From: Deltaproteobacteria bacterium | GTDB lineage: Bacteria > Desulfobacterota > Deferrimicrobia > Deferrimicrobiales > Deferrimicrobiaceae | Direction of reading: 5' to 3' | Length of the DNA: 64,000 nucleotides | Assembly: GCA_021815305.1 (NCBI GenBank) | Contig: JAKAHC010000001.1 | Location: 62,001 to 126,000, forward strand | Part shown: in pieces, positions 39,410 through 53,139 of the stretch | Numbering within the stretch: the stretch's first letter is position 1 | How the letters are laid out: each line of letters begins with the position of its first letter | Position numbers and translations under genes: made by a program | The notes under the pieces: generated by a model | Told to the model about the DNA's origin: nothing | Databases searched by the model: none | What the model saw: the letters and a program-made list of their open reading frames with translations, nothing else

Positions 39410-39432
39410 TTCATTTTTCCGCATCCGGTGTG

Positions 39433-39519
39433 CCGAAGTGGCGGAACTGGCAGACGCGCCAGATTCAGGGTCTGGTGTGGGCAACCACGTGGGGGTTCAA
39501 ATCCCCCCTTCGGCACCAG
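39433..39519 (+). tRNA. tRNA-Leu, anticodon CAG
   Basis: An 87-base type II tRNA. The acceptor stem pairs GCCGAAG with CTTCGGC, followed by discriminator A and an encoded CCA. The anticodon arm CCAGA-TTCAGGG-TCTGG gives anticodon CAG, reading CUG, the leucine codon favoured by this GC-rich genome. A long variable arm (GTGGGC...CCAC) and a T arm of GGGGG-TTCAAAT-CCCCC are clear. It stands alone, with its own promoter, between rnr and a transporter gene. No repeat of its 3' end was noticed nearby, so no integrated element is indicated. Confidence 0.97.
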
Positions 39520-39819
39520 TACTTGCGCACTTTTCTCCAAAATCCATTTCCCCCGACATGGCGGTTTTGCGGCCGGCCCCATGCACCAGATCTCGTCATA
39601 CGGTTTGCGAGTTTCGATCTCCGAAGGATTCAGCATGAAATACGTAAGGATATCCTTGAGTTCTTTCGCCATGAGGCGAAGGGGGTCCGCCATCGGGAAA
39701 ACGTCGGCTATGCCCCCGGCCCGGAGGCGATCCCTTTCCCCACGGACGCTTCGGGATCCCGGGCGGCGATTCCCGGCGTCGCGCTTCCGGCCGGATACAC
39801 GGGGAGGTACAATGACGCG
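39520..39819. other. 300-bp gap between tRNA-Leu and the BASS transporter; no supported gene
   Basis: No protein or RNA gene can be supported here. The minus strand holds an open segment with a few non-repetitive codons (about 39540-39690), but it continues through the antisense of the tRNA and has no ribosome-binding site, so it may be a gene remnant at most. A GGGGAGG lies just before the transporter start region. Confidence 0.5.
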
Positions 39820-40728
39820 ATGCGCATGCGCGACGTCATGCTGGTGGTCCTGGCGCTCGGCGGCCTGGCCACGGGGGTGGTCTTCCCGAAGTTCGGGCTC
39901 CTCTTTTCGCCCTGGACCGTGCACGTGCTCATGGCCCAGCTCTTCTTCAGTTTCCTCGGGGTAGACTTCCGTTCACTGGCCCGGGTGCGCCCGGCCGATG
40001 CCGTCGAAGTGGGGGTGATCAGCGCGGCGAAGCTCTTCTTCGTTCCGATCCTGTTCTGGACGATCGCAGCTTGGCTGGCCCCGGGATGGGCGCTGCCGGT
40101 CCTTTTGATGAGCGGGGTTTCCACCGGGGTCACCGCTCCCTTCATCGCGAACCTCCTGGGGAGCAGCCCGCACCGCATGCTGCAGGTGTCGGCACTGACC
40201 TCGGCCCTGGTCCCCTTCACCCTTCCCGCCCTGGTCACCCTGCTGCTGGGGCAGCGCCTGGATATCCCCTATTCCTACATGGCCCGGATGCTGGCCCTCG
40301 TCCTGCTTCCTCCCGGGATCGTCGTATTCCTGCTGAAGCGGTTCTCCCCCGGGCTGGCGGACCGTTTGAACCGGCTCTCGGTGCCTTTGGGGATCGTCCT
40401 TTTCTTTTTCGTCGACATGGCGATCATCGCGCCCTTCGCCGGGCAGGTCACCGGCCGGATCGACCGGGTGCTGGCGGCGCTCGGCATGGCCACCCTGCTG
40501 AACGTGGCCTTCGTTTCCTTCGGGCTGGGGATGTCCCGCCTGCGGCGCTTCCGGCTCGACGGGCTGACCGGAGCTCTCGGGCTCACCTGCATCAACAACA
40601 CGCTGGTGGCGGTGTTCGCTGCCCGCTTCTTCGGGTCCGATCCCACGCTGCTGGCCGTGCTCTACATGTTCCCCTACTTCCTGATCCTGTTTCCCATGCG
40701 GTGGGTGGCGGAGCGGATGCATTTCTGA
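39820..40728 (+). CDS. BASS-family (bile acid:sodium symporter-like) transporter
   Basis: A 302-residue inner-membrane protein with nine or ten hydrophobic segments and the BASS pattern: MAQLFFSFLGVDFRSL in the second span, GVSTGVTAPFIANLLG at the first core crossing, and LGLTCINNTLVAVFAARFF (GLxxxNN-type) at the second. Bacterial members move bile acids, pyruvate, pantoate or other organic anions with sodium. The ATG at 39820 is chosen from two close ATGs; GGGGAGG is 12 bases upstream. It converges on the E2 gene of the sigma-54 operon and might serve the same metabolism, but nothing in sequence shows that. Confidence 0.82.
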   Translation: MRMRDVMLVVLALGGLATGVVFPKFGLLFSPWTVHVLMAQLFFSFLGVDFRSLARVRPADAVEVGVISAAKLFFVPILFWTIAAWLAPGWALPVLLMSGVSTGVTAPFIANLLGSSPHRMLQVSALTSALVPFTLPALVTLLLGQRLDIPYSYMARMLALVLLPPGIVVFLLKRFSPGLADRLNRLSVPLGIVLFFFVDMAIIAPFAGQVTGRIDRVLAALGMATLLNVAFVSFGLGMSRLRRFRLDGLTGALGLTCINNTLVAVFAARFFGSDPTLLAVLYMFPYFLILFPMRWVAERMHF

Positions 40729-40734
40729 CCGTTC

Positions 40735-40766
40735 CGCCGGGAAGGGGCGGAAACGCCCGCCCGCGG
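40735..40766. terminator. Possible bidirectional terminator between BASS and E2 genes
   Basis: A bulged stem (GTTCCGCC with GGCGGAAAC) and an alternative compact hairpin GGGCG-GAAA-CGCCC lie in the 52-bp convergent gap. Neither has a good T-tract. Confidence 0.35.
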
Positions 40767-40780
40767 GAAATCTCCTGCCG

Positions 40781-41986
40781 TTACAGCGATAGCCGGTAAG
40801 GCTCCTCCAGGATCCGCCTGATCGCGTCCAGGAAAGCCGCCGCGGGTGCGCCGTCGATGGCGCGATGATCGAAGACGAGGCTCAGCGGCAACACGGGAAG
40901 GACCTCCACCTTCCCGTCCCGCGCCACGGGTTTCCGGACCGCCCGGCCGACGCCCAGTATGGCTACCTGCGGCGCGTTGATCACCGGCATGAAGAAAGCG
41001 ATGTTGTGGCCCCCGAGGTTCGAGACGGTGAAGGTCGCCCCTTCCAGGTCCGTAAGCGCCAGGGAGCCGCTGCGGGCCCTGGACGCGAGCGCGCCGACCC
41101 CGGACGCGATCTCGATCAGGCCCATCCGGTCGGCATGTTTGAGCACCGGGACCGCCAGGCCCTCTTCCAGCGAGACCGCCACGCCGATATGGATCTCCCC
41201 TTCGAAGCGCCGGATCACGCCTCCCAGCCAGTGGGCGTTCACCCCCGGATGCGCCCTCAACGCGATCCCGGCGGCCTTGATGATGAGCGGCAGGTAGCCG
41301 GTCTTCCCTTCGGCATTCTTCCGGAATTCCGGATCGAGTTGCGCCAGCAGTTCCTCGGCGCGCTCCATGACGGCTTCCGTCGTGAGCAGCACGGGCACCG
41401 TGCCGTGGAAGCTTTGCGACATGCGATCGGCGATCACCTTCCGGATCCCCGTCACGGGCACGTCGCGGAACGCGGCGACCGGCGCTGCAGCCGCGGGGGC
41501 CGGGGGAACCTCCCGCGCGGCTTCCACGTCGCGGGCATGGATCCGACCGCTCGCCCCGGTCCCCCGCAGGGAAGCCAGGTCGATTCCGTAGGCGCGGGCG
41601 CGGGAGCGCGCCGCAGGGGTGGCCCGGACCCTCCCTGCGGGCCCGTTGGAGATCCCGGGCGCGGTCGGTGCCGGGGCCGGACCGGAAGCGTCCGCAACGC
41701 CGGAAGAGGCGAAAGCCGCGGAGGTCCCGGCAACGGGCACCTTCTCGCCGGCACGCCCCACCCAGGCCAGTGGGGTCCCCACCGGAACCTGTTTCCCCTC
41801 GGGAACGACGACGGACAGCAACACCCCTTCCGCGTCGCTTGGGACCACTACGGTCACCTTGTCGGTTTCGATCTCGACGATCGGTTCCTCCCTGGCGACC
41901 GGATCTCCGACGCGCTTCAGCCACTTGAGGACCGTGCCCTCTTCCATGGTCACGCCCATCCGGGGCATTGCGATTTCGAACGCCAT
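40781..41986 (-). CDS. Dihydrolipoamide acyltransferase (E2) of a 2-oxoacid/acetoin dehydrogenase
   Basis: E2 carries acyl groups on lipoyl-lysine and hands them to CoA. The 401-residue protein has one lipoyl domain (IVEIETDKVTVVV, Lys near 43), an Ala/Pro linker, a peripheral-subunit-binding domain (ATPAARSRARAYGIDLAS with GTGASGRI) and the catalytic domain with VSNLGGHNIAFFMPVINAP and FDHRAIDGAPAAAFL (HxxxDG). It is the last gene of the operon after E1-alpha and E1-beta. A single lipoyl domain is usual for acetoin and branched-chain complexes. No E3 gene accompanies it. Confidence 0.9.
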   Translation of the reverse strand: MAFEIAMPRMGVTMEEGTVLKWLKRVGDPVAREEPIVEIETDKVTVVVPSDAEGVLLSVVVPEGKQVPVGTPLAWVGRAGEKVPVAGTSAAFASSGVADASGPAPAPTAPGISNGPAGRVRATPAARSRARAYGIDLASLRGTGASGRIHARDVEAAREVPPAPAAAAPVAAFRDVPVTGIRKVIADRMSQSFHGTVPVLLTTEAVMERAEELLAQLDPEFRKNAEGKTGYLPLIIKAAGIALRAHPGVNAHWLGGVIRRFEGEIHIGVAVSLEEGLAVPVLKHADRMGLIEIASGVGALASRARSGSLALTDLEGATFTVSNLGGHNIAFFMPVINAPQVAILGVGRAVRKPVARDGKVEVLPVLPLSLVFDHRAIDGAPAAAFLDAIRRILEEPYRLSL

Positions 41987-42000
41987 GCCGATCCCTCCCC

Positions 42001-42978
42001 CTACGCGAGGACCGCCTTGCAGGCGGCGATGATCTTCTGTTCGTCGGGCAGAAAGAGGTCCTCGAGGAACTTGCTGAAGGGGACGGGGACCTCGGCGCCC
42101 GCCACCCGCCGTATGGGAGCGTCCAGGTAGTCGAAGGCTTCGCTCTCCGCGACGATCGCCGCGACCTCGGCTCCGAACCCGAACCGCTTGACCGCTTCGT
42201 GGACGGTCACGAGACGCCCGGTCTTCTTGACGGAGGCGATGATGGCCTCCCTGTCCAGCGGCCAGAGCGTCCGGGGATCGAGCACCTCCGCGTCGATCCC
42301 CTCCTTCGACAGCTTCTCCGCCGCGCCCAGGGCGATGGTGACCTGCCTGCCGGTGGCCACCACCGTGACGTCCCCGCCCGCGCGCTTGATCTCCGCCGCT
42401 CCGAGCGGGATGGTGTACTCTCCCTCGGGGACGGGACCTTTCTGGGAGTACAGGTGCTTGTTCTCCAGGAAGATGATCAGGTTGTCTTCCCGGATCGCGC
42501 TCTTCAGCAGCCCCTTGGCGTCCGCGGGCGTCGAGGGCATGACCACCTTCAGACCCGGCACATGGCAGAGCCAGGCCTCCAGGCTTTGGGAATGCTGCCC
42601 GGCGTTCGCGCGCCCCGCCCCGAAAGGCATCCGGAGGACCATGGGCACCCTGGCCTTCCCGCCGAACATGTATTTGACCTTGGCCCCCTGGTTCACCACC
42701 TGGTCCATGGCGATGGTGATGAAATCCGTATACATGAGCTCGGCCACGGGGCGCGCCCCCACCAGGGCGGCTCCGACAGCCGCGCCGGCGATGGCCGCTT
42801 CCGAGATCGGGGTGTTGCGCACGCGTTCCGGCCCGAAGCGCTGGAATATCCCCTTGGTCACCGCGAATGCGCCCCCGTGGAGACCGATATCCTCTCCGAT
42901 CAGGAAGACCCGCGGGTCGCGCTCCATTTCCTCCACCAACGCCTCGTTGACCGCCTGCGACAACGTCAGTTCCTTCAT
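42001..42978 (-). CDS. Thiamine-diphosphate-dependent dehydrogenase E1 beta subunit
   Basis: The beta subunit completes the E1 active site that decarboxylates a 2-oxoacid or cleaves acetoin. The 325-residue sequence has [16 protein letters not shown] near the N terminus, [38 protein letters not shown], and the C-terminal transketolase domain with [13 protein letters not shown] and [18 protein letters not shown]. It matches the AcoB/PdhB-type heterotetramer E1 family throughout. It lies 14 bp after E1-alpha and 14 bp before E2, so the three are co-transcribed. Sequence alone does not separate acetoin, pyruvate and branched-chain substrates. Confidence 0.92.
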
Positions 42979-42992
42979 GGAAGGATTCCCCC

Positions 42993-43955
42993 CTACTCTG
43001 AATACACGTCGGTGAAGAGTTCGGAAGGATCGGGGTCCGGCGAAGACTGGGCGAAGGCGACCCCCTCGTCCAGCTTGCGGGCGATCTCCCCGTGGATCCC
43101 GTCCAGTTCCGCCTCCGTGGCGAGTCCCTCCCCGACCATCTGCTTCCGCAGGCGGAGGATCGGATCCTTCGCTTTCCAGTCCTCGACCTCCTCCCTGGTG
43201 CGGTAGACGACCGGATCGCCGATGTAGTGGCCCTCGAAACGGTAGGTATCCATCACGAGAAGCGACGGCCCCTTTCCGGCGCGGGCGCGCCCGACCGCGT
43301 CCGAGGTTACCCGGAAGACCTCGCGCGCATCCATTCCGTCGACCCTTGTGCCGGGCATGTCGTAGGCGATCGCCCGTTTCGCCAGATCGGGTTGCGACGA
43401 AGCCTCGGACAAGGGGGTCGTCATGCCGAACTGGTTGTTCTCGCACACAAAGACCACCGGGAGTTTCCACAGGGCCGCCAGGTTCAACGTCTCGTGGAAC
43501 ACCCCCTGGTTGGCGGCCCCGTCCCCGAAAAACGCGGCGACCACGTTTTGCAACCCGAGTTGACGTATCCCCAGGGCGGCCCCGGCGGCGATGGGAATGC
43601 CGCCGCCGACGATCCCGTTCGCCCCGAGATGCCCCAGGTCGAGGTCCGCGATGTGCATGGAACCGCCCTTGCCCTTGCAGTAGCCGGTCGCCTTGCCCAG
43701 CAACTCGGCGATCATCAGGTCCATGCGGGCGCCCTTGGCGATCGCGTGGCCGTGTCCCCGGTGCGTGCTGGTTATGTAATCGCCGGGCGAAAGCGCGGCG
43801 CAGACGCCCGCCGCCACCGCCTCCTGCCCGATGCAGAAGTGGACGGACCCCCGCAACACGCCCTTCCTCGAAAGTTCCTGGAGCTTCGTTTCGAAGGAAC
43901 GGATGGAAACCATGGTTTCGTAGATCCTGCGATCCGGCGCACCCGCTGTTTTCAT
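42993..43955 (-). CDS. Thiamine-diphosphate-dependent dehydrogenase E1 alpha subunit
   Basis: E1 alpha binds ThDP and the substrate. The 320-residue protein shows [57 protein letters not shown], and the ThDP motif [20 protein letters not shown] to ENNQFGMTT, typical of the AcoA/PdhA heterotetramer class. The phosphorylation-loop region ([14 protein letters not shown]) is of the bacterial type. The ATG at 43955 is preceded by a purine-rich GGGGGATGAGGG. It follows the SDR gene by 29 bp. Near an AcoR-like activator it is most likely acetoin dehydrogenase, but a 2-oxoacid substrate is equally possible in principle. Confidence 0.9.
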
Positions 43956-43984
43956 TCCCTCATCCCCCGCGGTTCGTGTTGGAG

Positions 43985-44737
43985 CTAAACCAGCAACCTC
44001 CCGCCGTCGACGTCCAGGATCGCGCCGGTCATGTACCGGGAACCTTCCGAAGCGACGAACAGGACGACGTCGGCTATATCCTCCGGCGCGCCGTAGCGCC
44101 CCATCGGGATAAGCCGGACGGCATCGTCCCGGACCTTCTCCGGAAGGTGCAGCATGAACTCCGTCTCGGTCGATCCCGGGCAGACCGCGTTGACCGTGAT
44201 CCCCTCGGGAGCGAGTTCCCGCGCCAGGTGCCGGGTAAGCCCCAGCAGACCTGCCTTGGAGGCGGTGTAATCCGGTCCCATGAAGACGCTGGTGGACCGC
44301 CCCGCCAGGGAGGAGATGTTGATGATACGGCCGCCCGGCGCCCTCCGGCGCATGTGCGGAAGCACGGCCCTGGCGAGGAGGAAGGGCCCTTTCAGGTTCA
44401 CGGCGAGCACCTTGTCCCACTGCGCCTCCGTCACGTCGAGCACGGAGGAGGACGCCTTGGCGTGCCCGGCGTTGTTCACCAGGATGTCGATCCCGCCCAA
44501 GGCCTCCGCGGCCGCACCCACCGCCTTCTCCACCTGGGCCGCATCCGCCACGTCGGCGGTCACGGCGACGGCTCGTCGCCCCAGGGCCCGCGCCTCGTCC
44601 GCCACCGCGGCCGCCGACAGACGGGAGAGATCCAGCACCGCCACGTCGGCCCCCGCCCCTGCGAACGCGAGCGCGACGGCCCGGCCGATCCCCGCTCCGC
44701 CGCCCGTTACGAGGCCGATCTTTCCGTTCAGTTCCAT
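43985..44737 (-). CDS. SDR-family NAD(P)-dependent oxidoreductase
   Basis: A 250-residue classical short-chain dehydrogenase. TGGGAGIGRAVA is the nucleotide loop, NNAGHAK the NNAG motif, ISSLAGRS the catalytic Ser, and YTASKAG the YxxxK pair; VNAVCPGSTETEF follows as usual. Asp at the end of the second strand (VLDLSR) favours NAD(H) over NADP(H). In this operon it may act as a diacetyl/acetoin reductase or oxidise another hydroxy-ketone made by the zinc dehydrogenase upstream; the family is too broad to say more. GGGGGAGG stands before the ATG. Confidence 0.88.
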   Translation of the reverse strand: MELNGKIGLVTGGGAGIGRAVALAFAGAGADVAVLDLSRLSAAAVADEARALGRRAVAVTADVADAAQVEKAVGAAAEALGGIDILVNNAGHAKASSSVLDVTEAQWDKVLAVNLKGPFLLARAVLPHMRRRAPGGRIINISSLAGRSTSVFMGPDYTASKAGLLGLTRHLARELAPEGITVNAVCPGSTETEFMLHLPEKVRDDAVRLIPMGRYGAPEDIADVVLFVASEGSRYMTGAILDVDGGRLLV

Positions 44738-44741
44738 CGCC

Positions 44742-45782
44742 TCAGCCTCCCCCGGGAAGCAGAAGCACCTTCCCGGCGTCCCCGCCGCGCGACAACGCGA
44801 ATCCGCGTTCGAATTCCGAAAGCGGCAGCCGATGCGTCAGCACGGGTCCGAAATCCGCCCTTCCGGAGGCCACCAACCCCTCCAGCATCGCCCACGTCCG
44901 CCACATGTGCCGTCCGTGAATCCCCAGGATCGTCGCTTCCTTGAAGACGATGTCCCGCGTCACGTCCAGGGAGACTTCGGCGCCGGGAAGACCCAGCAAC
45001 ACCACCCGCCCCCCCTTGCGCAGGTAACCGAACGAGGACCGGAGCGCCTCGCCCGCGCCGGACACCTCGAGGATCACGTCGACGCCGCGGGCATGCGTCG
45101 CATCCGAAATGGCCTTGACCGGGTCGACCTCTCCGGGCCGGATCAGGATCGTGGCTCCGACGTTCTCCGCCAGCGCGAGGCGTCCCGGGGCGACATCCAG
45201 GGCGAAGATGCGCGCGGCCCCGAAGATGCGGGCGAACAGGACCGCGAACAGGCCGATCGGACCGCAGCCGACCACGGCCACGTCCGCTCCCGCCACACCG
45301 CCGCGCTCCACACCGTGCAACGCCACCCCCGCCGGCTCGAACGCCGCTGCGGTTTCCAGCGGAATCTCCCCGGGGATGCGACGGGCCACGGCCGCGGGCA
45401 CCGCGGCGTACTCGGCGAAGCACCCGTCCGTGTGCAGCCCGAAGATCCTGAGATCCGCGCAGATATGCTGGTCGCCCGTCCTGCACTGGTAGCACCTGCC
45501 GCAGGGGATGTGGGTCTCCACCGAGACGTGGTCGCCCACCGCCAGGTCGGTCACTCCGGCTCCCAGCGCGACGATTTCGCCGCTGCACTCGTGCCCGATG
45601 ACGCCCGGGACCTTCAGGCCGGCTCCCTGCGCCCAGGCGTTCCATTCGTGGATATGGCTGTCGGTCCCGCAGATCGCGGCGGCGGCGACCCGGACCAGGA
45701 CCTCCCTGCGTCCCGGTTCGGGGCGTTCGGTCGTGCACAGGGAGGCCCCCGGTCCCCGTTGGAGTTTCATTACCGCCAGCAT
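44742..45782 (-). CDS. Zinc-dependent medium-chain alcohol dehydrogenase (Tdh/butanediol-dehydrogenase-like)
   Basis: A 346-residue MDR-superfamily enzyme. Catalytic zinc ligands are Cys in AAICGTDSH and His-Glu in IGHECSGE; the structural-zinc cysteines form CGRCYQCRTGDQHIC. The Rossmann loop is VVGCGPIGLFAV, with Asp in ALDVAPGR pointing to NAD. It resembles threonine 3-dehydrogenase and (R,R)-butanediol or sorbitol dehydrogenases. The ATG at 45782 has GGAGACGGC upstream. It follows the TRAP permease gene and precedes the SDR gene with a 4-bp gap. 2,3-Butanediol oxidation to acetoin would fit the downstream dehydrogenase, but this is inference. Confidence 0.88.
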   Translation of the reverse strand: MLAVMKLQRGPGASLCTTERPEPGRREVLVRVAAAAICGTDSHIHEWNAWAQGAGLKVPGVIGHECSGEIVALGAGVTDLAVGDHVSVETHIPCGRCYQCRTGDQHICADLRIFGLHTDGCFAEYAAVPAAVARRIPGEIPLETAAAFEPAGVALHGVERGGVAGADVAVVGCGPIGLFAVLFARIFGAARIFALDVAPGRLALAENVGATILIRPGEVDPVKAISDATHARGVDVILEVSGAGEALRSSFGYLRKGGRVVLLGLPGAEVSLDVTRDIVFKEATILGIHGRHMWRTWAMLEGLVASGRADFGPVLTHRLPLSEFERGFALSRGGDAGKVLLLPGGG

Positions 45783-45808
45783 GCCGTCTCCGTCCTTTCC
45801 CGGCAGGG

Positions 45809-47113
45809 CTATGCCCCCCGCATCTTCGCGGCGAGACGGGGGATGAACAGCGACATGTCCGGCCACGCGCTGATCAGGATCAGGGCGACGACCGCGGCGA
45901 TGATGAAGGGAACCACGTACCTGAGGATGTTTTTCAAGGGAACTCCCGCGAGGTTGCAGGCGACATACAGGTTGACGCCCACCGGCGGCGTGAAGAGGCC
46001 GATGGCCAGGTTGACGGACATGATGACGCCGAAGTGGACGAGGTTGACCCCCATTTCCTTGGCCACGGGCAGGAAGATCGGGAGGGAGATGTAGAAGATC
46101 GAGATCGCATCGAGGAAGCAGCCGGCGATCAGGAGCAGGACGTTGACGGAAACGAGGAACGCCAGCTTCGTTTTCGAGATCGAAAGGAGCAGCGTGCTGG
46201 CCTTCATGGCGATCCCCTTGGCGATGACGACCCAGGCGAAGAGGCCCGCCGCCCCCACTACGAACATGACCACGGCGGAGGACGTTCCCGCGTCGATGGC
46301 GATCTCCCAAACCCGCTTCAGGGTGACCGTCTTGTATACGAAGATGCCCACGAGGAGGCCGTATACGCAGATCACTCCGGCCGCCTCCTCCGGCGTGAAG
46401 AAACCTCCGTAGATGCCCACCAGGAGGACAACGGGCGCCATGAGGCCCCAGACCGCCTCCTTGAAAGCCGCCCAGATCTCTCCGGGAGTGCCGCGCCGCT
46501 CCCCCTTGTGGCCGTGCTTCTTGCCGTACATCCAGGCATAGACCCCCATCACCAGGCCCAGCATCAGGCCCGGAACGATGCCGGCCAGGAACATGTCGGC
46601 GATGGAAACCTCCGCCAGCACACCGTAGACGATGAACGCGATCGACGGGGGGATGATGATCGCGATGGAGCCGGCGCTGGCGATGATGCCGGCGGCGAAA
46701 TTCCTGTCGTATCCCCGTCGTGCCATGGCCGGGATCAGGATGGCGCCAAGAGCCGCGACGTCGGCGGGACCGGACCCGGAGATGCCTGCGAAGATGACTC
46801 CCACGACCACGGTGACCAGCGCGAGGCTGCCGTACACCGGGCCGATGACCAGGCTGGAGAGACGGATCAGCCGGTCCGATATGCCGCACCGGTCCAGCGT
46901 GATCCCCGCAAAGACGAAAAGAGGGATGGACAGCAGGCTGAACTTCTCCGTTGCGGCGTACATCATGGTGGAGATCATGCCCAGGGGCATTCCGGTGAGC
47001 AGGAGAGTGATGATCGCCGAGGCGCCGAGCGAGACGGCGATGGGGACGTTCAGGAACAGGAGGACGAAGAAGACGAGAAACAGGAAAGCGGCCGCCATGC
47101 CGGTCGTGATCAT
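45809..47113 (-). CDS. dctM: TRAP transporter large permease subunit (DctM)
   Basis: DctM is the 12-span subunit of tripartite ATP-independent periplasmic transporters and carries the sodium-coupled substrate path. The 434-residue product has LNVPIAVSLGASAI, SLLSIPLFVFAG, GISGSGPADVAALGAILIP (signature loop), AGIIASAGSIAIIIPPSIAF and the C-terminal NLAIGLFTPPVGVNLYVAC, all family marks. It overlaps dctQ by four bases (ATGA). With dctP and dctQ it makes a complete uptake system for a small organic acid or related substrate. Confidence 0.95.
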   Translation of the reverse strand: MITTGMAAAFLFLVFFVLLFLNVPIAVSLGASAIITLLLTGMPLGMISTMMYAATEKFSLLSIPLFVFAGITLDRCGISDRLIRLSSLVIGPVYGSLALVTVVVGVIFAGISGSGPADVAALGAILIPAMARRGYDRNFAAGIIASAGSIAIIIPPSIAFIVYGVLAEVSIADMFLAGIVPGLMLGLVMGVYAWMYGKKHGHKGERRGTPGEIWAAFKEAVWGLMAPVVLLVGIYGGFFTPEEAAGVICVYGLLVGIFVYKTVTLKRVWEIAIDAGTSSAVVMFVVGAAGLFAWVVIAKGIAMKASTLLLSISKTKLAFLVSVNVLLLIAGCFLDAISIFYISLPIFLPVAKEMGVNLVHFGVIMSVNLAIGLFTPPVGVNLYVACNLAGVPLKNILRYVVPFIIAAVVALILISAWPDMSLFIPRLAAKMRGA

Positions 47114-47598
47114 GCCGTTTTCTCCTCTGCCTTGTCTCCGAAAAAGTCATCGTAGGCGTTCTCGAGGAAACGGATGAGGGTCAGCAGGACGGAAAGGGGC
47201 ACGACCGCGCTGAAAGGCCACGCGGGAAGACCCAGGGAAGGCGTTGTCTGGCCGGTGTTGTACTCCTGGAGGGCCATCTTGACGCCGAAGTAACCGAGAA
47301 ATCCAAGAAAGAAGAGTACGGCGGCGAGCGCCGCCAGGGAGACGTAACGACGGCCTTTCGCCGGCAAGACATCCACCAGGAGGGAGAGACCCAGGTGCGC
47401 CCTGCGCTTGGTGGCCATCGGGATGCCCAGGAACGTGATCCAGACGAACATCAGCAGCATGACCTCTTCCGCCTCGCCCGTCCGTACGCCGATCCCGCGC
47501 GTAACGATGGACACGAAGTCGATGAGGACCACGACGAGGATCGCCGAAGCCACCAGCGCCTCTTCAAGGTAGTCGAGTGCGTTGAGAATCTTTCGCAT
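47110..47598 (-). CDS. dctQ: TRAP transporter small permease subunit (DctQ)
   Basis: DctQ is the four-span partner of DctM. The 162-residue protein has spans near 13-33, 48-65, 88-108 and 128-148, the GEAEEVMLLMFVWITFLG segment and RRAHLGLSLLVDVLP, both typical of the family. GGGAGG stands three bases before the ATG at 47598. A 42-bp perfect palindrome lies 61 bp upstream in the gap after dctP, so dctQ expression is probably lower than that of dctP. Confidence 0.93.
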   Translation of the reverse strand: MRKILNALDYLEEALVASAILVVVLIDFVSIVTRGIGVRTGEAEEVMLLMFVWITFLGIPMATKRRAHLGLSLLVDVLPAKGRRYVSLAALAAVLFFLGFLGYFGVKMALQEYNTGQTTPSLGLPAWPFSAVVPLSVLLTLIRFLENAYDDFFGDKAEEKTA

Positions 47599-47658
47599 GA
47601 ACCTCCCCTCGCGGAACAACGGGGGTTTCCGCCCCGGAAGGCGGTCGGGCGCGACAGA

Positions 47659-47700
47659 CCGCGGTTCCCGGGCGGCGGATCCGCCGCCCGGGAACCGCGG
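47659..47700. repeat. Perfect 42-bp palindrome between dctP and dctQ
   Basis: Bases 47659-47700 are identical to their reverse complement (two 21-base arms centred on GGATCC between 47679 and 47680). In RNA it would form a 19-bp, very GC-rich hairpin with a GAUC loop ending ten bases after the dctP stop. It has no T-tract. It is likely to protect the dctP mRNA 3' end and/or reduce read-through into dctQM. Confidence 0.9.
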
Positions 47701-47710
47701 GAACGCCATG

Positions 47711-48724
47711 TCACTTCGATAGGTTCTGGAACTTCTGGAGGAGGTCGGCGCCGAGGATCGGCCTGTACTCATTGTAGACCGGGGCCACCGCGGCCTTGAA
47801 CTTCGCCAGGTCCGCCTTGGTGGGGGTGTAGACCGCCACTCCGTTGTCCTTGATGATCTTGAGGTTCGAAACGTCCCTGTCACGGTTCAGCTTGACCTGG
47901 AACGCCGCCGCTTCCCTGATGGACTTGACGACGATATCCCGCAGTTCCGGTTCCCAGCTCTGGAAGTTGGCGGTATTGACGCCGTAGATCAGGGCGTCAT
48001 ACGAGTAGTTCCAGAGGGTCATGTATTTCTGGACCTCGTAGAGCTTGGAGGAGGCGATGATGTCCAGCGGGTTCTCCTGGCCGTCCACGACCTTCTGCTG
48101 CAGGGCGCCGAAAACCTCGCCGAAGTTCATGGACAGGGGGTTCGCTCCCAGCGCCTTCCAGGCCGAGATGTACATCTTGATTCCCGGGATACGGATCTTC
48201 AGGCCCCTGATATCCTCCGGCGTACGGATCTCCCGCTTGGAGTTGGTCACCTGGCGGAAACCGTTCTCGCCCAGGGCCAGGCCGGTGATGCCCTTCGGCT
48301 TGGCCAGGGACAGGATCTCCTCTCCCAGGGGGCCGTTGCGGAACTTGTCCACCTGCGCGTAGCTGGAGAACAGGAACGGCATGGAGACGACGGTGAACTT
48401 CTGCTCCAGGCCGGTGTAAAAAATCGTCGAGGTGACGGTGAAGTCGATGGCGCCGTTCTGGAGCATCTCCAGTTCCTTGATCTGGTTGCCCGAGGCGAGC
48501 TGGCTGTTCGGGAAGACGGAGACCTTGACCGCGCCCCCGGTCCGCTGCGCGACGAGCTCCGCGAACTTCCTGGCGGAGATCGTCCATGTGGAGGTGTCGG
48601 AGGAGGTCACGCCCATCCGGAGTTCACGGGGCTTGAACCTCTGAGGAGCTGCAGCGGAGACCGAGACGGTCAGGCAGATCATGAGCAGTGCGGCGGCCAC
48701 GACGGAAAAGAGAGACTTTTTCAC
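47711..48724 (-). CDS. dctP: TRAP transporter substrate-binding protein (DctP)
   Basis: DctP is the periplasmic ligand-binding subunit. The 337-residue precursor has a signal peptide (two Lys, hydrophobic core, SVSAAAP cleavage region) and the DctP-fold motifs VFPNSQLASGNQIKELEMLQNG, split across the ligand lobe, and LRGLKIRIPG, whose Arg normally holds the substrate carboxylate, then ALGANPLSMNFGEVFGALQQKVVDGQENP. The GTG start at 48724 has AGGAGG eight bases upstream. Conservation of the Arg suggests an acidic ligand. A TATAAT-like box overlaps the preceding stop and could add an internal promoter. Confidence 0.93.
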   Translation of the reverse strand: MKKSLFSVVAAALLMICLTVSVSAAAPQRFKPRELRMGVTSSDTSTWTISARKFAELVAQRTGGAVKVSVFPNSQLASGNQIKELEMLQNGAIDFTVTSTIFYTGLEQKFTVVSMPFLFSSYAQVDKFRNGPLGEEILSLAKPKGITGLALGENGFRQVTNSKREIRTPEDIRGLKIRIPGIKMYISAWKALGANPLSMNFGEVFGALQQKVVDGQENPLDIIASSKLYEVQKYMTLWNYSYDALIYGVNTANFQSWEPELRDIVVKSIREAAAFQVKLNRDRDVSNLKIIKDNGVAVYTPTKADLAKFKAAVAPVYNEYRPILGADLLQKFQNLSK

Positions 48725-48763
48725 GGACCCAACCTCCTGTGGAGTGAACGGCGACTTCAGGCA

Positions 48764-48769
48764 ATTATA
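48764..48769 (-). promoter_or_regulatory. Possible internal -10 box ahead of dctP
   Basis: TATAAT on the minus strand overlaps the stop codon of the second PCC gene and lies 40 bases before the dctP start. No good -35 is present at the right distance, so this is weak. Confidence 0.25.
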
Positions 48770-49205
48770 AGTGCAATCCCCCGGTTCGGGCACGGGATGA
48801 TCCGGTGTCCTCGGCGGGTTCCGGCAGCCACTCTTCGAGCGTCACCTCGAAGGTAACGCAGATCGGGTTCAGGCCCGACACGAACGGACCGCCGTACACG
48901 TTTCCTTCCGGGTCGGCGACCACGCCGGAGAGCGAGGCGCTCGGCGTCCCGTTCGCGTCGGAACGCACCTCGCCCGCAAGGCTCACGATTTCGACTGCGG
49001 GGCCCTTGACTTCGATCACGCCCCCGTCGCTTGCCTCCAGGCTCGCATCGACGAGGCTTCCCAGTGCCCCCCGCACGAACGCGTTGTTGAACCCCTTGGC
49101 CAGGCAGAGTTTTTCGATTCCGATCACGAGGTCTTCATTGGGGGCGATGCGCGCATAGGCGACGCGCCCCATCCTCCCGTTTTCCACGTACCGGAAATCA
49201 CCCAT
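48765..49205 (-). CDS. PCC/DUF296-domain protein B (histidine motif lost)
   Basis: A 146-residue protein matching the PPC/PCC (DUF296) fold, known from plant AT-hook proteins and free-standing bacterial trimers whose role is unclear. The order ARIAPNEDLVIGIEKLCLAK, FVRGALGSLVDASLE, GPAVEIVSLAGEV and VVADPEGNVYGGPF fits the domain. Where the family has HxH before and GGH after this last segment, this copy has SASLSG and GGP, so the presumed metal histidines are missing. The ATG at 49205 lies within the end of the upstream PCC gene (8-bp overlap). Both are in the sigma-54 operon; they may form a hetero-oligomer. Confidence 0.82.
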   Translation of the reverse strand: MGDFRYVENGRMGRVAYARIAPNEDLVIGIEKLCLAKGFNNAFVRGALGSLVDASLEASDGGVIEVKGPAVEIVSLAGEVRSDANGTPSASLSGVVADPEGNVYGGPFVSGLNPICVTFEVTLEEWLPEPAEDTGSSRARTGGLHL

Positions 49206-49734
49206 GGGATTCCTCCCCGTAAGGCTGCAGCAGCGAGACGTGGGTTTCCTCGTCGTAGGCCTGGCGCAGCTCGATCCCCACGATGGAGGTGACCAGCACG
49301 GAAATCGGCTTGCTGCCCACAATGGATTGTTCGGTGATGATGTGCCCTCCCTTCACTTCCCCGCGCTCCGTCCGGATCACCGCATGGCAGTGGACCAGGG
49401 GCTCTCCCTCGACGGTCCTCCCCAGCGTCGCATTGCCGAAAATCATGTAGGCGCGACCTGCATCGATCGGTTTGGAATAGGCGATCACGGCGCGCTTCTC
49501 CGGATCCGGAGGCGCCACGCAATAATACATTTTCTCGAAAGCCCCGCGGAGGATGGTCGTGGAGGCATCGCGGATATTGCGCTCCGCCAGGGGTTTGACC
49601 ATCGCGTCGAACAAGGTTTCCCCCGGCTTGAGGGACAAACGGATATGGATCCCGTAAGTGGCCGACCCGGCCTTGATCCGTACCGGGTTGAACGGCCCCG
49701 GGTGGCGAAGCAGGCGAGGTCTTTTCGTCGTCAT
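49198..49734 (-). CDS. PCC/DUF296-domain protein A (histidine motif intact)
   Basis: The first gene of the sigma-54 operon encodes a 178-residue PCC/DUF296 protein. The core reads LSLKPGETLFDAMVKPLAE, ILRGAFEKMYY, then PLVHCHAVIRTERG and KGGHIITEQSIVG; the HxH and GGH histidines form the family's likely metal or ligand site. The N-terminal Arg-rich stretch (TTKRPRLLRHPG) precedes it. I use ATG 49734, 28 bases after the predicted transcript start; frames further upstream lie before the promoter. Function of free-standing PCC proteins is unknown; position at the head of a catabolic operon suggests an enzymatic or ligand-sensing role rather than general DNA binding. Confidence 0.82.
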   Translation of the reverse strand: MTTKRPRLLRHPGPFNPVRIKAGSATYGIHIRLSLKPGETLFDAMVKPLAERNIRDASTTILRGAFEKMYYCVAPPDPEKRAVIAYSKPIDAGRAYMIFGNATLGRTVEGEPLVHCHAVIRTERGEVKGGHIITEQSIVGSKPISVLVTSIVGIELRQAYDEETHVSLLQPYGEESHG

Positions 49735-49772
49735 CGGACATGCCCCGTGAAGCCGATTTGCCCCCCGTAAAC

Positions 49773-49789
49773 AGCAAGTGCCATGCCGG
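49773..49789 (-). promoter_or_regulatory. Sigma-54 (-24/-12) promoter of the PCC-TRAP-dehydrogenase operon
   Basis: The minus strand reads CCGGCATGGCACTTGCT, matching 15 of 17 positions of YTGGCACGRNNNTTGCW, including the invariant GG and GC ten bases apart. The start site would be near 49762, 28 bases before the first PCC gene. The neighbouring regulator has the GAFTGA loop that contacts sigma-54. Confidence 0.75.
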
Positions 49790-49894
49790 ATTTTTCTTTC
49801 GTCACCTGCCGTTGCCATAAAGGGAAACAGGAAGGGAGTACGCCTCGTTACCCTTTCCGCCCCTTCCGGGACCGACGTTTTTCGCTCAAAAACA

Positions 49895-49929
49895 GGACAC
49901 ATCGTCCCGAACAGGAACGTCCTGAACAG
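49895..49929. promoter_or_regulatory. Putative enhancer (activator-binding) sites upstream of the sigma-54 promoter
   Basis: Two dyads sit 17 bases apart: GGAC-ACATC-GTCC (49895-49907) and CAGGA-ACG-TCCTG (49912-49924). Superimposed on them is a direct repeat CGTCCYGAACAG (49903-49914 and 49918-49929). They lie about 110-140 bp upstream of the -24 box, the usual distance for enhancers of Fis-type activators. A GTTTTT...AAAAAC inverted repeat (49877-49893) lies between. Confidence 0.55.
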
Positions 49930-49963
49930 TGACACCCCCGAAGCGAGGCGAAACAGGATCGAT

Positions 49964-51931
49964 CTACAGTCCGAACCTGCGGATCTTGCCGTACAGGGTG
50001 TTTCGGCTTATCTTCAGGACCCTCGCCGCCCTGGTGATGTTTCCTCCGGCCGCCTCCATGGCTTTGGCGACGGCCATCTTCTCGATTTCCTTCAGCGACG
50101 CTTTGCCCTGGCCCAGGGCCACTTGCGTCTCCCCGGGTTTCCAGAGCGTCTTGGGCAGGTACTCCACGTCGATGAAATCCCCATGGCTGACGTTCAACGC
50201 GCGCTCCAAAACGTTTTCCAATTCGCGGACATTGCCGGGCCAGGAATGCACCCGAAACCGCTCCATCACCGCAGAGGTCACTCCCAGGGCCGCCTTGCCC
50301 AACTTGCGGTTGAGCTTGTCGATGATATGGCTCACCAGGAGGGGAAGGTCGTCCAGCCATTCCCGCAGGGGGACCATCGTTATCCATAAAACGTTCAACC
50401 GGTAGTAAAGGTCCCGGCGGAAATGCCCTTCTTCCACCTCGAACTGCAGATCCCTGTGGGTCGCCGCAAGCACCCGCACATTGACATCGATGTAATTCGA
50501 TCCTCCCACTCTCAAGACCTTCCGGTCCTGAAGCACCCTCAACAGCTTGACCTGCATGTCGGGAGGCATATCCCCGATCTCGTCCAGGAAGATCGTGCCC
50601 CCGTTGGCCAGCTCGAACTTCCCCGGTCGTCCTCCACGCCGGGCACCCGTGAACGCACCCTCCTCATGGCCGAACAGGTCGCTCTCGATCAGTTCCCTGG
50701 GGATGGCGCCGCAATTGACGGCGACGAACGGGCCTTCCCGCCGGTTGCTCCCGTTGTGGATCGCCTGGGCCAGGATCTCCTTGCCGGTTCCGCTCTCCCC
50801 CTGGATCAGAACGGTGGAAGAACTGGCGGCGGCGGCCCTGGCCAGGCGCAGGACGTCCTGGATCTTGGGGTTCCGGCCGACGAAGTCGTCGAAGGTGAAG
50901 TTGGCCTGGGACCCGATCATCTGGTTGACCATCTGCCGCACCCGTTTCGCCTCGCGGAACGCGTCCACCACGCCCACGATCTCCCCGTTTTCCTCCCGGA
51001 TGGGCACCGCGGTCTGGATGAAATGCAGGACTCCCCTGCCGCTCTTGTGGAAAAACTCCTTGTCCGCATACCCCTTTCCGCTGGCAAGGACATCGGTAAT
51101 CGTGGCGCGGTAGTCCACCACATCCTGGATGTGACGGCCGATCACATCCCTGTGGTCGATCCCGATCATGCGGGCACCGGCCGCGTTCAGGTAAGTGATG
51201 CATCCCCGCTTGTCGATGGTGAGCAATCCGTCGGATATGGATTCCACGATCGCCGCCTGGTACTTGTACGCGGTCTTCAACTCCCGGGCAGCCCGGTTCA
51301 TCGCCATCTGGTTTTCTATGGCGGTGACCGCCGCCACGACCATCCCGAGGGTGTGGCAATGGACGAGATCCGTGCTCCCGGACATGTCGAGCACGCCCGC
51401 GACCCTTCCGTCCGGATCCCGGATCGGGGCCGCGGAGCATGTCCAGGCGAGGAGATCCTTGCAGTAATGCTCCAGCGCATGGATCTGGAGGGGCGTTCCC
51501 TCCGCGAGAGCCGTCCCGATCGCGGTGTTCCCGGCGTATTCCTCTTTCCAGATCGCCCCCGGCGCATGGTATGCGGCGGCCCGCTCGTCGGCGTTCTCCG
51601 TGCCGATCACCTTCAGGATGCAGGTGTCCGGATCCGCCAGCAACACGACGAAGCCCGAGTCCCGCACGAATCCGTAAAGGCTTTCCATGAACGGAGCGGC
51701 GGCCTTCAGGAGGAAATCGTATCTTTCGAGACGGGCCTTGAGTTCGTCGCCGGAAACCCTGTCGGGACACTGGCCGGAGCGGGGATCCACCCCCAGTTTC
51801 CTGCACCGTTCCCACGAACGGGCGATCACCGGGCGGAGCTTTCCGGACGGAACCGTTCCGGACCGGAGGAGAATCTCGTGGGCCTGGCGCAGGTTCTGGT
51901 CCGCCGTCGGGAAAAACAGGGAAGAATCCAT
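49964..51931 (-). CDS. Sigma-54-dependent transcriptional activator, AcoR-like (GAF-PAS-AAA+-Fis)
   Basis: A 655-residue enhancer-binding protein. The N terminus (VIARSWERCRKLGVDP, 35-50) and the GAF-like region to about 205 are those of AcoR/YfaA-type sensors; a PAS domain follows (about 225-330). The AAA+ domain has Walker A GESGTGKE (378), GAFTGA (425-430, sigma-54 contact) and Walker B GTIFLDEIGD (445), with the R-fingers in FRRDLYYRLNVL. A Fis-type HTH ends the protein (GGNITRAARVLKISRNTLYG). AcoR of other bacteria responds to acetoin. It lies immediately upstream of the operon it probably controls. A weak AGAGGT precedes the ATG. Confidence 0.93.
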   Translation of the reverse strand: MDSSLFFPTADQNLRQAHEILLRSGTVPSGKLRPVIARSWERCRKLGVDPRSGQCPDRVSGDELKARLERYDFLLKAAAPFMESLYGFVRDSGFVVLLADPDTCILKVIGTENADERAAAYHAPGAIWKEEYAGNTAIGTALAEGTPLQIHALEHYCKDLLAWTCSAAPIRDPDGRVAGVLDMSGSTDLVHCHTLGMVVAAVTAIENQMAMNRAARELKTAYKYQAAIVESISDGLLTIDKRGCITYLNAAGARMIGIDHRDVIGRHIQDVVDYRATITDVLASGKGYADKEFFHKSGRGVLHFIQTAVPIREENGEIVGVVDAFREAKRVRQMVNQMIGSQANFTFDDFVGRNPKIQDVLRLARAAAASSSTVLIQGESGTGKEILAQAIHNGSNRREGPFVAVNCGAIPRELIESDLFGHEEGAFTGARRGGRPGKFELANGGTIFLDEIGDMPPDMQVKLLRVLQDRKVLRVGGSNYIDVNVRVLAATHRDLQFEVEEGHFRRDLYYRLNVLWITMVPLREWLDDLPLLVSHIIDKLNRKLGKAALGVTSAVMERFRVHSWPGNVRELENVLERALNVSHGDFIDVEYLPKTLWKPGETQVALGQGKASLKEIEKMAVAKAMEAAGGNITRAARVLKISRNTLYGKIRRFGL

Positions 51932-52314
51932 TTCGCACCTCTTGCGGGAACCGGCCCTGTCGGGAGGGAATCGATCTTGCCGGATGTCCGCCCGAAATCA
52001 ATGCATCGGGACCAGGTGCCGGAGACCGCCGAAACGCTTCCGGTCCGCACGCCATGCCCCGCTTGCGCCGAGGCGGGCGAAGGGATCGTGGCCCGGCCGA
52101 CGGAATGCCGATGCGGGGGGGGAGAGGCGGAGCGACAGGCACCGGACGCCCCGCCACGTCCCTCCCCGGGATACAGTCGGCGTTGCGGGCTCCGACCGGT
52201 ACGCCGTGTTGCGCCCTCCGCGGAAGCGGGAGACGGGGACGGCATGCGCCGGTCCCGGCCGGCGGCGTCATCGCCGTCCCGGGAACGGGCCGGCGGGAGA
52301 CCGGGGGTTGCCGC
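51932..52314. other. 383-bp GC-rich gap between DUF3467 and activator genes
   Basis: No gene or RNA can be supported. Minus-strand frames here are open but Arg/Ser/Pro-rich with no ribosome-binding site. A long imperfect hairpin (about 52240-52300, arms CCGGTC...CCGGC) could end the DUF3467 transcript. The activator's promoter must lie here, but no consensus hexamers stand out beyond a TTGATT about 50 bases upstream of its ATG. Confidence 0.5.
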
Positions 52315-52602
52315 CTAATTGAACGACTGGTCTTTCGGCTCCATCGGCCGCACGCCGCCGAACTTGCTTTCATACTTCTGCAAATTGTTCCCCAACGCCT
52401 CGATGATGCGTTGCATGTGTCCGGGACTCACGATGATGCGGGAGACCATGTGCGTGCCGGTCGGCGAATTGAGGAACCAGTCGATCATGAACTCCTCGCC
52501 GCTGTGGCTCACGAGCATGTTGTTGCTGTAGCGCCCCCTCGAAATCTCATCCCCGGCGATGACCTGGATCTGCTGCGCTTCCTTCGGCTTCTCGCTCGAC
52601 AT
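52315..52602 (-). CDS. DUF3467-family small protein
   Basis: A 95-residue protein of the DUF3467 family: IQVIAGDEISRGRYSNNMLVSHS, then EEFMIDWFLNSPTGTHMVSRII and VSPGHMQRIIEALGNNLQKYE close to a C-terminal FGG. (The pieces are contiguous apart from the breaks.) The family is widespread in bacteria, about 100 residues, and of unknown function. I begin at ATG 52602 (SSEKPKEAQQ); an upstream ATG at 52635 adds eleven unlike residues. It lies between the MaoC gene and the activator, in the same direction. Confidence 0.8.
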   Translation of the reverse strand: MSSEKPKEAQQIQVIAGDEISRGRYSNNMLVSHSGEEFMIDWFLNSPTGTHMVSRIIVSPGHMQRIIEALGNNLQKYESKFGGVRPMEPKDQSFN

Positions 52603-52656
52603 GGCGATCGGCGCTCCCTCTCCGCAAAGGTTCATTGGGACTCGGGACGATGCCCG

Positions 52657-53139
52657 TTATGCCGGCATCTCCCGGCACCGATACATGCCCATCGCGAGAA
52701 GGGTCATGACGGTCTCCCGGCGCTGGTTCATCGCCTCGATGAAAAATACCACGACTCCCCGGTCCGGCTTGGTTCGGGAACGCCTGGCCTCCCGGACGGT
52801 TACCCGGATCGAGAGCTCGTCCCCCGGCCTCACCGGTTTGATCCACCGCAATTCATCCACGCCCGGAGACCCCATGCTCGCCACGCTCGATATGACGTTG
52901 TCCACCAGGAGACGCATCATCAGGGCGGCGGTGTGCCAGCCGCTCGCGACGAGACCTCCGAAGTGGCTCTTTTTCGCCGCTTCCGGATCGATGTGGAAGG
53001 TCTGCGGATCGTAAAGCTTCGCGAAAGCGATCACACTCTGTTCCGTGACCGCGATCGAGCCGAACTCATGGACCGATCCGGTAACATAATCCTCGAAATA
53101 CCGGTCCTCTCGCGATAGGGCAAACGGGGATGGTTCCAT
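52657..53139 (-). CDS. MaoC-like hot-dog dehydratase
   Basis: A 160-residue single hot-dog-fold protein of the MaoC/enoyl-CoA hydratase 2 type. It has YFEDYVTGSVHEFGSIAVTE at the start, AKLYDPQTFHIDPEAAKKS (the catalytic D-x-x-x-x-H region) and FGGLVASGWHTAALMMRL, the hydratase signature. It probably hydrates a 2-enoyl-CoA or related thioester. It is 28 bp after arfB and before DUF3467. Whether it belongs functionally with the sigma-54 operon further downstream is unknown. Confidence 0.88.
   Translation of the reverse strand: MEPSPFALSREDRYFEDYVTGSVHEFGSIAVTEQSVIAFAKLYDPQTFHIDPEAAKKSHFGGLVASGWHTAALMMRLLVDNVISSVASMGSPGVDELRWIKPVRPGDELSIRVTVREARRSRTKPDRGVVVFFIEAMNQRRETVMTLLAMGMYRCREMPA

Follow-up and report, generated by a model that had tools for sequence, protein, structure and literature searches.

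Organisation of the locus

We analysed a window of 64,000 nucleotides from a Deltaproteobacteria bacterium (contig JAKAHC010000001.1; positions given below are those of the window), in which ten consecutive genes lie on the minus strand, from 49734 down to 40781, behind a gene for an activator of the AcoR type. The ten genes are real and form one set: they encode two small PCC/DUF296 proteins, a tripartite ATP-independent periplasmic (TRAP) transporter, two dehydrogenases and a thiamine diphosphate (ThDP)/lipoate dehydrogenase complex. Intergenic gaps range from −8 to 40 bp, except for 112 bp before dctQ. The run of ten minus-strand genes announced in the original prediction is upheld by this spacing of the open reading frames (ORFs) and by the Pfam domains of the products.

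The first two genes, PCC-A (49198..49734) and PCC-B (48765..49205), overlap by 8 bp, and both products belong to PF03479 (33.2 and 56.0 bits, gathering cut-off 25 bits). PCC-A (178 amino acids) carries the motif HCH-x11-GGH and is a putative metal-binding catalytic subunit; PCC-B (146 amino acids) has no HxH…GGH and is a putative partner subunit. All three TRAP components follow, namely the solute-binding protein DctP (47711..48724, PF03480), DctQ (47110..47598, PF04290) and DctM (45809..47113, PF06808 and TIGR00786). Next come a Zn-dependent dehydrogenase (44742..45782, ADH_N/ADH_zinc_N) resembling L-threonine 3-dehydrogenase, and a short-chain dehydrogenase/reductase (SDR; 43985..44737, Pfam and NCBIfam). 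The last three genes encode ThDP-dependent E1-alpha (42993..43955, PF00676, E1_dh), E1-beta (42001..42978, PF02779/PF02780, Transket_pyr/C) and E2 (40781..41986), which has its lipoyl (PF00364), E3-binding (PF02817) and catalytic acyltransferase (PF00198, 2-oxoacid_dh) domains. The operon itself has no E3 gene; one E3 above cut-off is encoded elsewhere in the genome.

The activator gene (49964..51931, minus strand) ends 229 bp upstream of PCC-A. Its product, of 655 amino acids, has the GAF, PAS, sigma-54 AAA+, lid and Fis-HTH domains (Pfam) of an AcoR/DhaR-type sigma-54 activator, and orthologues 87% and 80% identical are found in two relatives of the same family. The best NCBIfam model was DhaR (NF008485), with 442.6 bits, below the cut-off of 551. 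In the gap between activator and PCC-A, a pattern search found a sigma-54 promoter-like −24/−12 site, CGGCATGGCACTTGCT (49773..49788, minus strand), which is the sole match to YGGCAYN5TTGCW in the window; shuffled sequences gave a mean of 0.08 matches, with at least one match in 7 of 100 shuffles. Close copies, CGGCATGACCCTTGCT and CGGCATGGCCCTTGCT, lie in the same gap of the two family relatives G013 and G015, with a largely changed spacer, and in G013 a second stretch ties with the sigma-54 copy by crude count. No good sigma-54 site was seen in the stretches upstream of PCC-A in two further loci, L048 and L081. The stretch from 40600 to 50100 yielded no sigma-70-type site (0.7 expected). A hairpin, CGGGACGATGTGTCCTG, followed by T5 (49893..49909, minus strand), may end transcription of the activator gene or belong to an upstream binding site of the activator; in one relative it is only partly kept, and since 7 such T-run hairpins were found in 9.5 kb for 5.9 expected, it carries little weight alone. 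The AcoR-like activator and the matching promoter of the original prediction thus both stand, as does its view of the locus as a single import-oxidise-cleave unit, with AcoR-like, sigma-54-type control at its head.

Upstream of the activator, two genes 21 bp apart encode DUF3467 and MaoC-like proteins (52315–53139). These have no counterpart on the AcoR-PCC contigs of the two relatives and therefore are probably not part of the system. At the other end (39432–40728), there are a tRNA-Leu(cag) gene and a hydrophobic plus-strand ORF without Pfam match, the ORF being convergent to the end of the operon.

Identity of the dehydrogenases and of the E1/E2 complex

The Zn-dependent enzyme had been described as butanediol-dehydrogenase-like. 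It scored 323 bits with an archaeal threonine 3-dehydrogenase and 115 bits with (R,R)-butanediol dehydrogenase, and the latter identity was rejected on this ground; 2,3-butanediol, put forward as a likely substrate partly on the strength of that label, loses support with it. The enzyme also stays below both equivalog cut-offs for L-threonine 3-dehydrogenase (371.7 of 380 for PRK05396, 373.1 of 458.35 for TIGR00692). Threonine catabolism was rejected, because the genome has no 2-amino-3-ketobutyrate ligase (KBL) above cut-off (293 of 493). The SDR remained under the NCBIfam cut-offs for BudC (196.8 of 270) and 23BDH (184.8 of 304.35). For E1-alpha, the best NCBIfam profile was pyruvate dehydrogenase E1-alpha, at 373.8 bits, below the cut-off of 393.85. 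E2 is a normal acyltransferase and falls below the AcoC equivalog NF011457 (90.8 versus 307 bits), a model that does not cover other AcoC types.

PCC-A is built like acetolactate decarboxylases

An AlphaFold model of PCC-A (predicted local distance difference test score, pLDDT, of 83) matched seven PCC entries with Z scores of 15.0 to 16.1 (2h6l: Z 16.1, root mean square deviation 2.3 over 139 residues). The next matches were nine acetolactate decarboxylase or decarboxylase-like entries at Z 6.7 to 9.8, five of them above 8, a value below which Z alone is weak evidence of a common fold. The best of these was 4bt2 (Z 9.8, root mean square deviation 3.4 over 115 residues), and another match, 4bt3, is a decarboxylase with 2,3-dihydroxy-2-methylbutanoate. 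Human PTD012 followed at 4.7, and the remaining matches shown were at most 3.8. Foldseek also ranked acetolactate decarboxylases right behind the PCC proteins, with E values of 2.5×10−3 to 1.1×10−2 only. It is fair to say that the predicted structure of PCC-A is built like acetolactate decarboxylases, outside the family PF03306. The HxH-x11-GGH motif was kept in 70 of 71 PCC-A homologues (see below), the exception being the truncated one of L081. PCC-B had the HxH…GGH motif in none of 69 sequences, and has many nearly invariant charged residues. The decarboxylase fold of the model, together with the kept histidines, makes an enzymatic job for the PCC pair likely. The genome of the window has no PF03306 decarboxylase.

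PCC-A/PCC-B pairs in other species

An alignment of PCC-A was scanned against one genome per species, 84,980 species in total. Seventy-one PCC-A loci were obtained, mostly from Alpha- and Betaproteobacteria, and 28 homologues from these loci were selected for a PCC-A alignment. None of 37 candidate stretches in viral contigs was confirmed. PCC-B directly followed PCC-A in 69 of the 71, and the remaining two are interrupted by contig ends. Other genes were counted by tblastn with reference proteins rather than from annotation, several loci being short: a TRAP binding protein was present in 58 loci, an SDR in 63, and regulators of the IclR, LysR and Lrp types in 50, 23 and 14. E1 genes were found in three loci (L048, L081 and L037); in L037 they are weakly similar, lie on the opposite strand and coexist with a thiolase and an acyl-CoA synthetase. 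What stays constant is PCC-A/B, accompanied in most loci by a TRAP importer and dehydrogenases, and what differs is the ending: E1/E2 genes as in the window, or the synthetase and thiolase discussed below. PCC-A of the window is 45 to 66% identical to that of thiolase-type loci, which therefore probably perform the same reaction.

Two-domain PCC proteins, apparently A-B fusions, were noticed in four loci (L008:12988-13869, L011:9992-10849, L012:10070-10849 and L013:10037-10801), the one in L008 adjoining an unfused pair. Next to the PCC pair of a Roseomonas mucosa plasmid (L007:14748-16289), and also in L046, a ThDP enzyme is encoded that carries the annotation acetolactate synthase.

Conservation of the gene set in relatives

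Within the family of the window, PCC-A was found in 2 of 24 genomes, the genome itself and G013 (82% identical), with a weak match in G015. In G013 the activator and PCC-A stand at a contig end, and the best E1-alpha is 45% identical. The weak match of G015 is a different, ordinary single PCC protein, encoded between the activator (80%) and E1-alpha (79%), E1-beta (88%) and E2 (68%); the contig stops within E2 and the closest TRAP genes are on another contig. This single PCC gene has few plasmid relatives (5 records), and most E1 annotations among the listed plasmid records are generic. At L085:4099-6238, a match to the G015 activator gene spans two frames in the assembly and the next PCC gene contains unread bases.

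The fullest counterpart is L048, a metagenome-assembled genome in which all ten components lie within 10.5 kb in a different order: PCC-A (61%), PCC-B (72%), E1-alpha (77%), E1-beta (85%), E2 (63%), then DctP, DctQ, DctM, SDR and Zn-dehydrogenase (48%). This 10.5-kb stretch showed no activator like that of the window. A second, partial E1-beta-like stretch lies between E2 and dctP (L048:14782-15194), with two ORFs there without Pfam match. In L081 (Desulfobulbaceae), dctM, E1-alpha, E1-beta, E2, an E3-like pyridine-nucleotide disulphide oxidoreductase and PCC-A run up to a contig end. The original prediction had made its gene set depend on co-conservation in a neighbourhood search; because the ten components recur in L048, that search does not refute it.

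The two trees do not agree. For E1-alpha, the window, G015 and L048 form a clade (support 100/100), and L081 branches outside on a long branch. For PCC-A, with 37 of the 71 loci included, the window groups with G013 and L081 (100/99) and L048 stands apart, in a tree whose bootstrap had not settled and in which L081 is only half covered. This conflict suggests that the union of PCC with E1/E2 arose more than once.

The TRAP binding protein

The nearest solved sequence to DctP (structure model with pLDDT 90.6) is 4p8b (E 1.9×10−62); in other Proteobacteria, the PCC-linked binding protein is close to 4oan (508 and 561 bits). Both entries are presumably complexes with acetolactate. A binding protein of the 4oan group, at least 50% identical to that of L008, stands beside PCC-A in 47 of the 71 loci. 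In the class of a Microvirga query, homologues at E≤10−90 occupied 9 places in 5 of 289 genomes, the query genome included. A PCC gene lay within 6.5 kb at all 3 places of at least 70% identity (query included), and none was found on the same contig at the 6 places of 52 to 63% identity. Also close to DctP, for which an alignment of 19 sequences was made, are 4xeq, 4pak and 4nq8, which we take to be pantoate binders. DctP of L048 is of another type, with 4pet, the ketoacid-binding 7ug8 and others as nearest solved proteins, the lactate-binding 7e9y among them. The review PMC5812351 counts 2-acetolactate among newly found TRAP ligands, in a passage that gives no entry names. Taken together, these findings favour a small 2-hydroxy or 2-hydroxy-3-keto acid as the ligand, in line with the earlier argument that a TRAP system points to an organic acid.

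A proposed pathway and its alternatives

Our tentative proposal, whose probability we place somewhat short of even, is that the operon serves the breakdown of a small, branched, acetolactate-type hydroxy(keto)acid. DctPQM, a transporter by family, would import the acid. If it arrives reduced, for instance as 2,3-dihydroxy-2-methylbutanoate, the threonine-dehydrogenase-like enzyme and/or the SDR would oxidise the 3-hydroxyl to give the 3-keto acid, on the model of threonine dehydrogenase acting on threonine. PCC-A, with its metal site, and its partner PCC-B may then decarboxylate this product like acetolactate decarboxylase does, giving an acetoin-type hydroxyketone, a step proposed from fold, His motif and neighbours. 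E1/E2, which by family are a ThDP/lipoate complex, would work with the E3 encoded elsewhere and, in the manner of acetoin dehydrogenase, split the hydroxyketone into acetyl-CoA and an aldehyde. The operon would be turned on via sigma-54 when its AcoR-type activator senses an intermediate. A broader form of the proposal, to which we give close to an even chance, is that paired prokaryotic PCC proteins are split, metal-dependent relatives of acetolactate decarboxylase, decarboxylating or rearranging acetolactate-type acids in a widespread, undescribed catabolic module of TRAP importer, dehydrogenases and PCC-A/B with two interchangeable endings, E1/E2 or acyl-CoA synthetase plus thiolase.

Several observations weigh against the proposed pathway. 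The main difficulty is the second ending: an acyl-CoA synthetase (PRK07470) and an SCP2-type thiolase (PRK07516) are both present in 61 of the 71 PCC-A loci, 57 of which also have the TRAP binding protein. Not every module is a single operon, since thiolase and PCC-A share a strand in 42 of the 61. If synthetase and thiolase act on the same acid, a prior decarboxylation would be pointless; this ending suits an acid that retains its carboxylate. The histidine spacing also differs, being HxH-x11-GGH in PCC-A and HxH-x8-GGH in all 17 decarboxylases that were aligned from the phylum (17 of 20 loci, leaving out one near-duplicate and two that were read in the wrong frame); for the triad it is HxH-x13-H against HxH-x10-H, the latter histidines presumably being the metal ligands of acetolactate decarboxylase. 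No link between PCC-A and the decarboxylases was found at the sequence level, hhalign giving a probability of 4% and PF03306 no match at an E limit of 10. PF03306 matches occur in 46 of 297 genomes, and in the 20 of these decarboxylase loci that were opened no E1, AcoR or PCC gene, nor any homologue of the operon's other genes or of those in the thiolase module, was present within at most 1.5 kb on each side; an exchange in place of decarboxylase for PCC is thus not seen. Likewise, a PCC gene was found within 1.5 kb at 0 of 29 other E1 loci, a reach that the window's own layout also exceeds. As for the ligand, 4p8b and 4oan are only presumed acetolactate complexes, and DctP is only 36% and 31% identical to them. 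Its model fits many TRAP proteins, 4p47, 8t9t and 4p8b among them, about equally well, so that structure alone cannot pick the ligand.

The thiolase would pose no such difficulty if PCC-A/B acted as a metal-dependent isomerase or racemase of ketol acids and left the carboxylate in place. E1/E2 would then cleave acetolactate to pyruvate and acetyl-CoA, in a reversal of acetolactate synthase with lipoate, and in other species acetyl-CoA and lactyl-CoA would arise from the CoA ester through synthetase and thiolase. One PCC job would thus serve both endings, as the resemblance between the PCC-A of the two kinds of loci (see above) would have it, and acetolactate decarboxylase, too, rearranges its substrate when given the wrong enantiomer. 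Should both endings share one PCC step, a role as isomerase or racemase would be the better guess. We nevertheless consider this explanation unlikely, though the likeliest of the alternatives: control of the AcoR type suggests a signal resembling acetoin, and we know of no E1/E2 complex acting on acetolactate. In another reading, the operon would serve a branched 2-oxo or pantoate-like acid, the dehydrogenases yielding a 2-oxo acid that E1/E2 would oxidise like pyruvate or branched-chain 2-oxoacid dehydrogenase, with some other chemistry for PCC. The pyruvate dehydrogenase profile of E1-alpha, an E2 outside the AcoC type of NF011457 and the proximity of DctP to the presumed pantoate binders speak for it; the score of E1-alpha under the pyruvate dehydrogenase cut-off and the AcoR-type activator heading the operon in both the window and G015 speak against, and we regard it as rather improbable.

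The version of the original prediction, catabolism of acetoin or 2,3-butanediol with the Zn-enzyme as butanediol dehydrogenase and PCC as an accessory, draws on the AcoR-like activator and on E1/E2. The resemblance of the Zn-enzyme to threonine dehydrogenase and the SDR scores under BudC and 23BDH run counter to it, and neutral acetoin should need no TRAP importer, which makes it very unlikely. Finally, database records call the PCC proteins 'PPC domain-containing DNA-binding protein', as if they were DNA-binding or regulatory partners. We give this the least credence, because the predicted fold of PCC-A is that of a decarboxylase-like metalloprotein with a fully kept His motif, because the two PCC proteins are found paired or fused, in most cases among catabolic genes, and because the 71 loci often have their own IclR, LysR or Lrp regulators.

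Relation to known systems and significance

In the acetoin dehydrogenase operon acoR-acoABC, as in the window, an AcoR-type sigma-54 activator precedes the genes for E1-alpha, E1-beta and E2. The operon described here differs by the additional PCC pair, TRAP importer and two dehydrogenases, by the missing E3 gene, and by an E1 that forms a clade of its own with those of G015 and L048. PCC-A shares fold and HxH…GGH motif with alpha-acetolactate decarboxylase (PF03306), whereas it is short and single-domain, works (if the proposal holds) with a partner, and has three extra residues before GGH. Both proteins are members of the PCC/DUF296 family (PF03479; AF0104, PH0802), whose fold PCC-A matches; they differ in that they sit as an A+B pair in a catabolic operon, one of the two being devoid of the His motif. 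On the transport side, the likeness is to the TRAP proteins 4oan, for the PCC-linked binding protein, and 4p8b, for DctP of the window, at the modest identities given above.

A literature search, with subscription journals mostly outside its reach, found no paper linking DUF296/PCC proteins to acetolactate, acetoin or TRAP, and no uptake-and-use pathway for acetolactate-type acids; among the papers listed on DUF296 in bacteria, no title or abstract beginning mentions such a pathway. The gene content of the operon suggests an undescribed route for the catabolism of acetolactate-like acids. Members of the PCC/DUF296 family are present in plants as well as in bacteria and archaea, and those of bacteria often bear a DNA-binding annotation. 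If the proposal is true, a catalytic role of PCC would correct this naming across many genomes, a metabolic fate would be found for acetolactate-type acids, reported before as ligands of TRAP systems, and a branched hydroxyacid would be added to the food sources of environmental bacteria.

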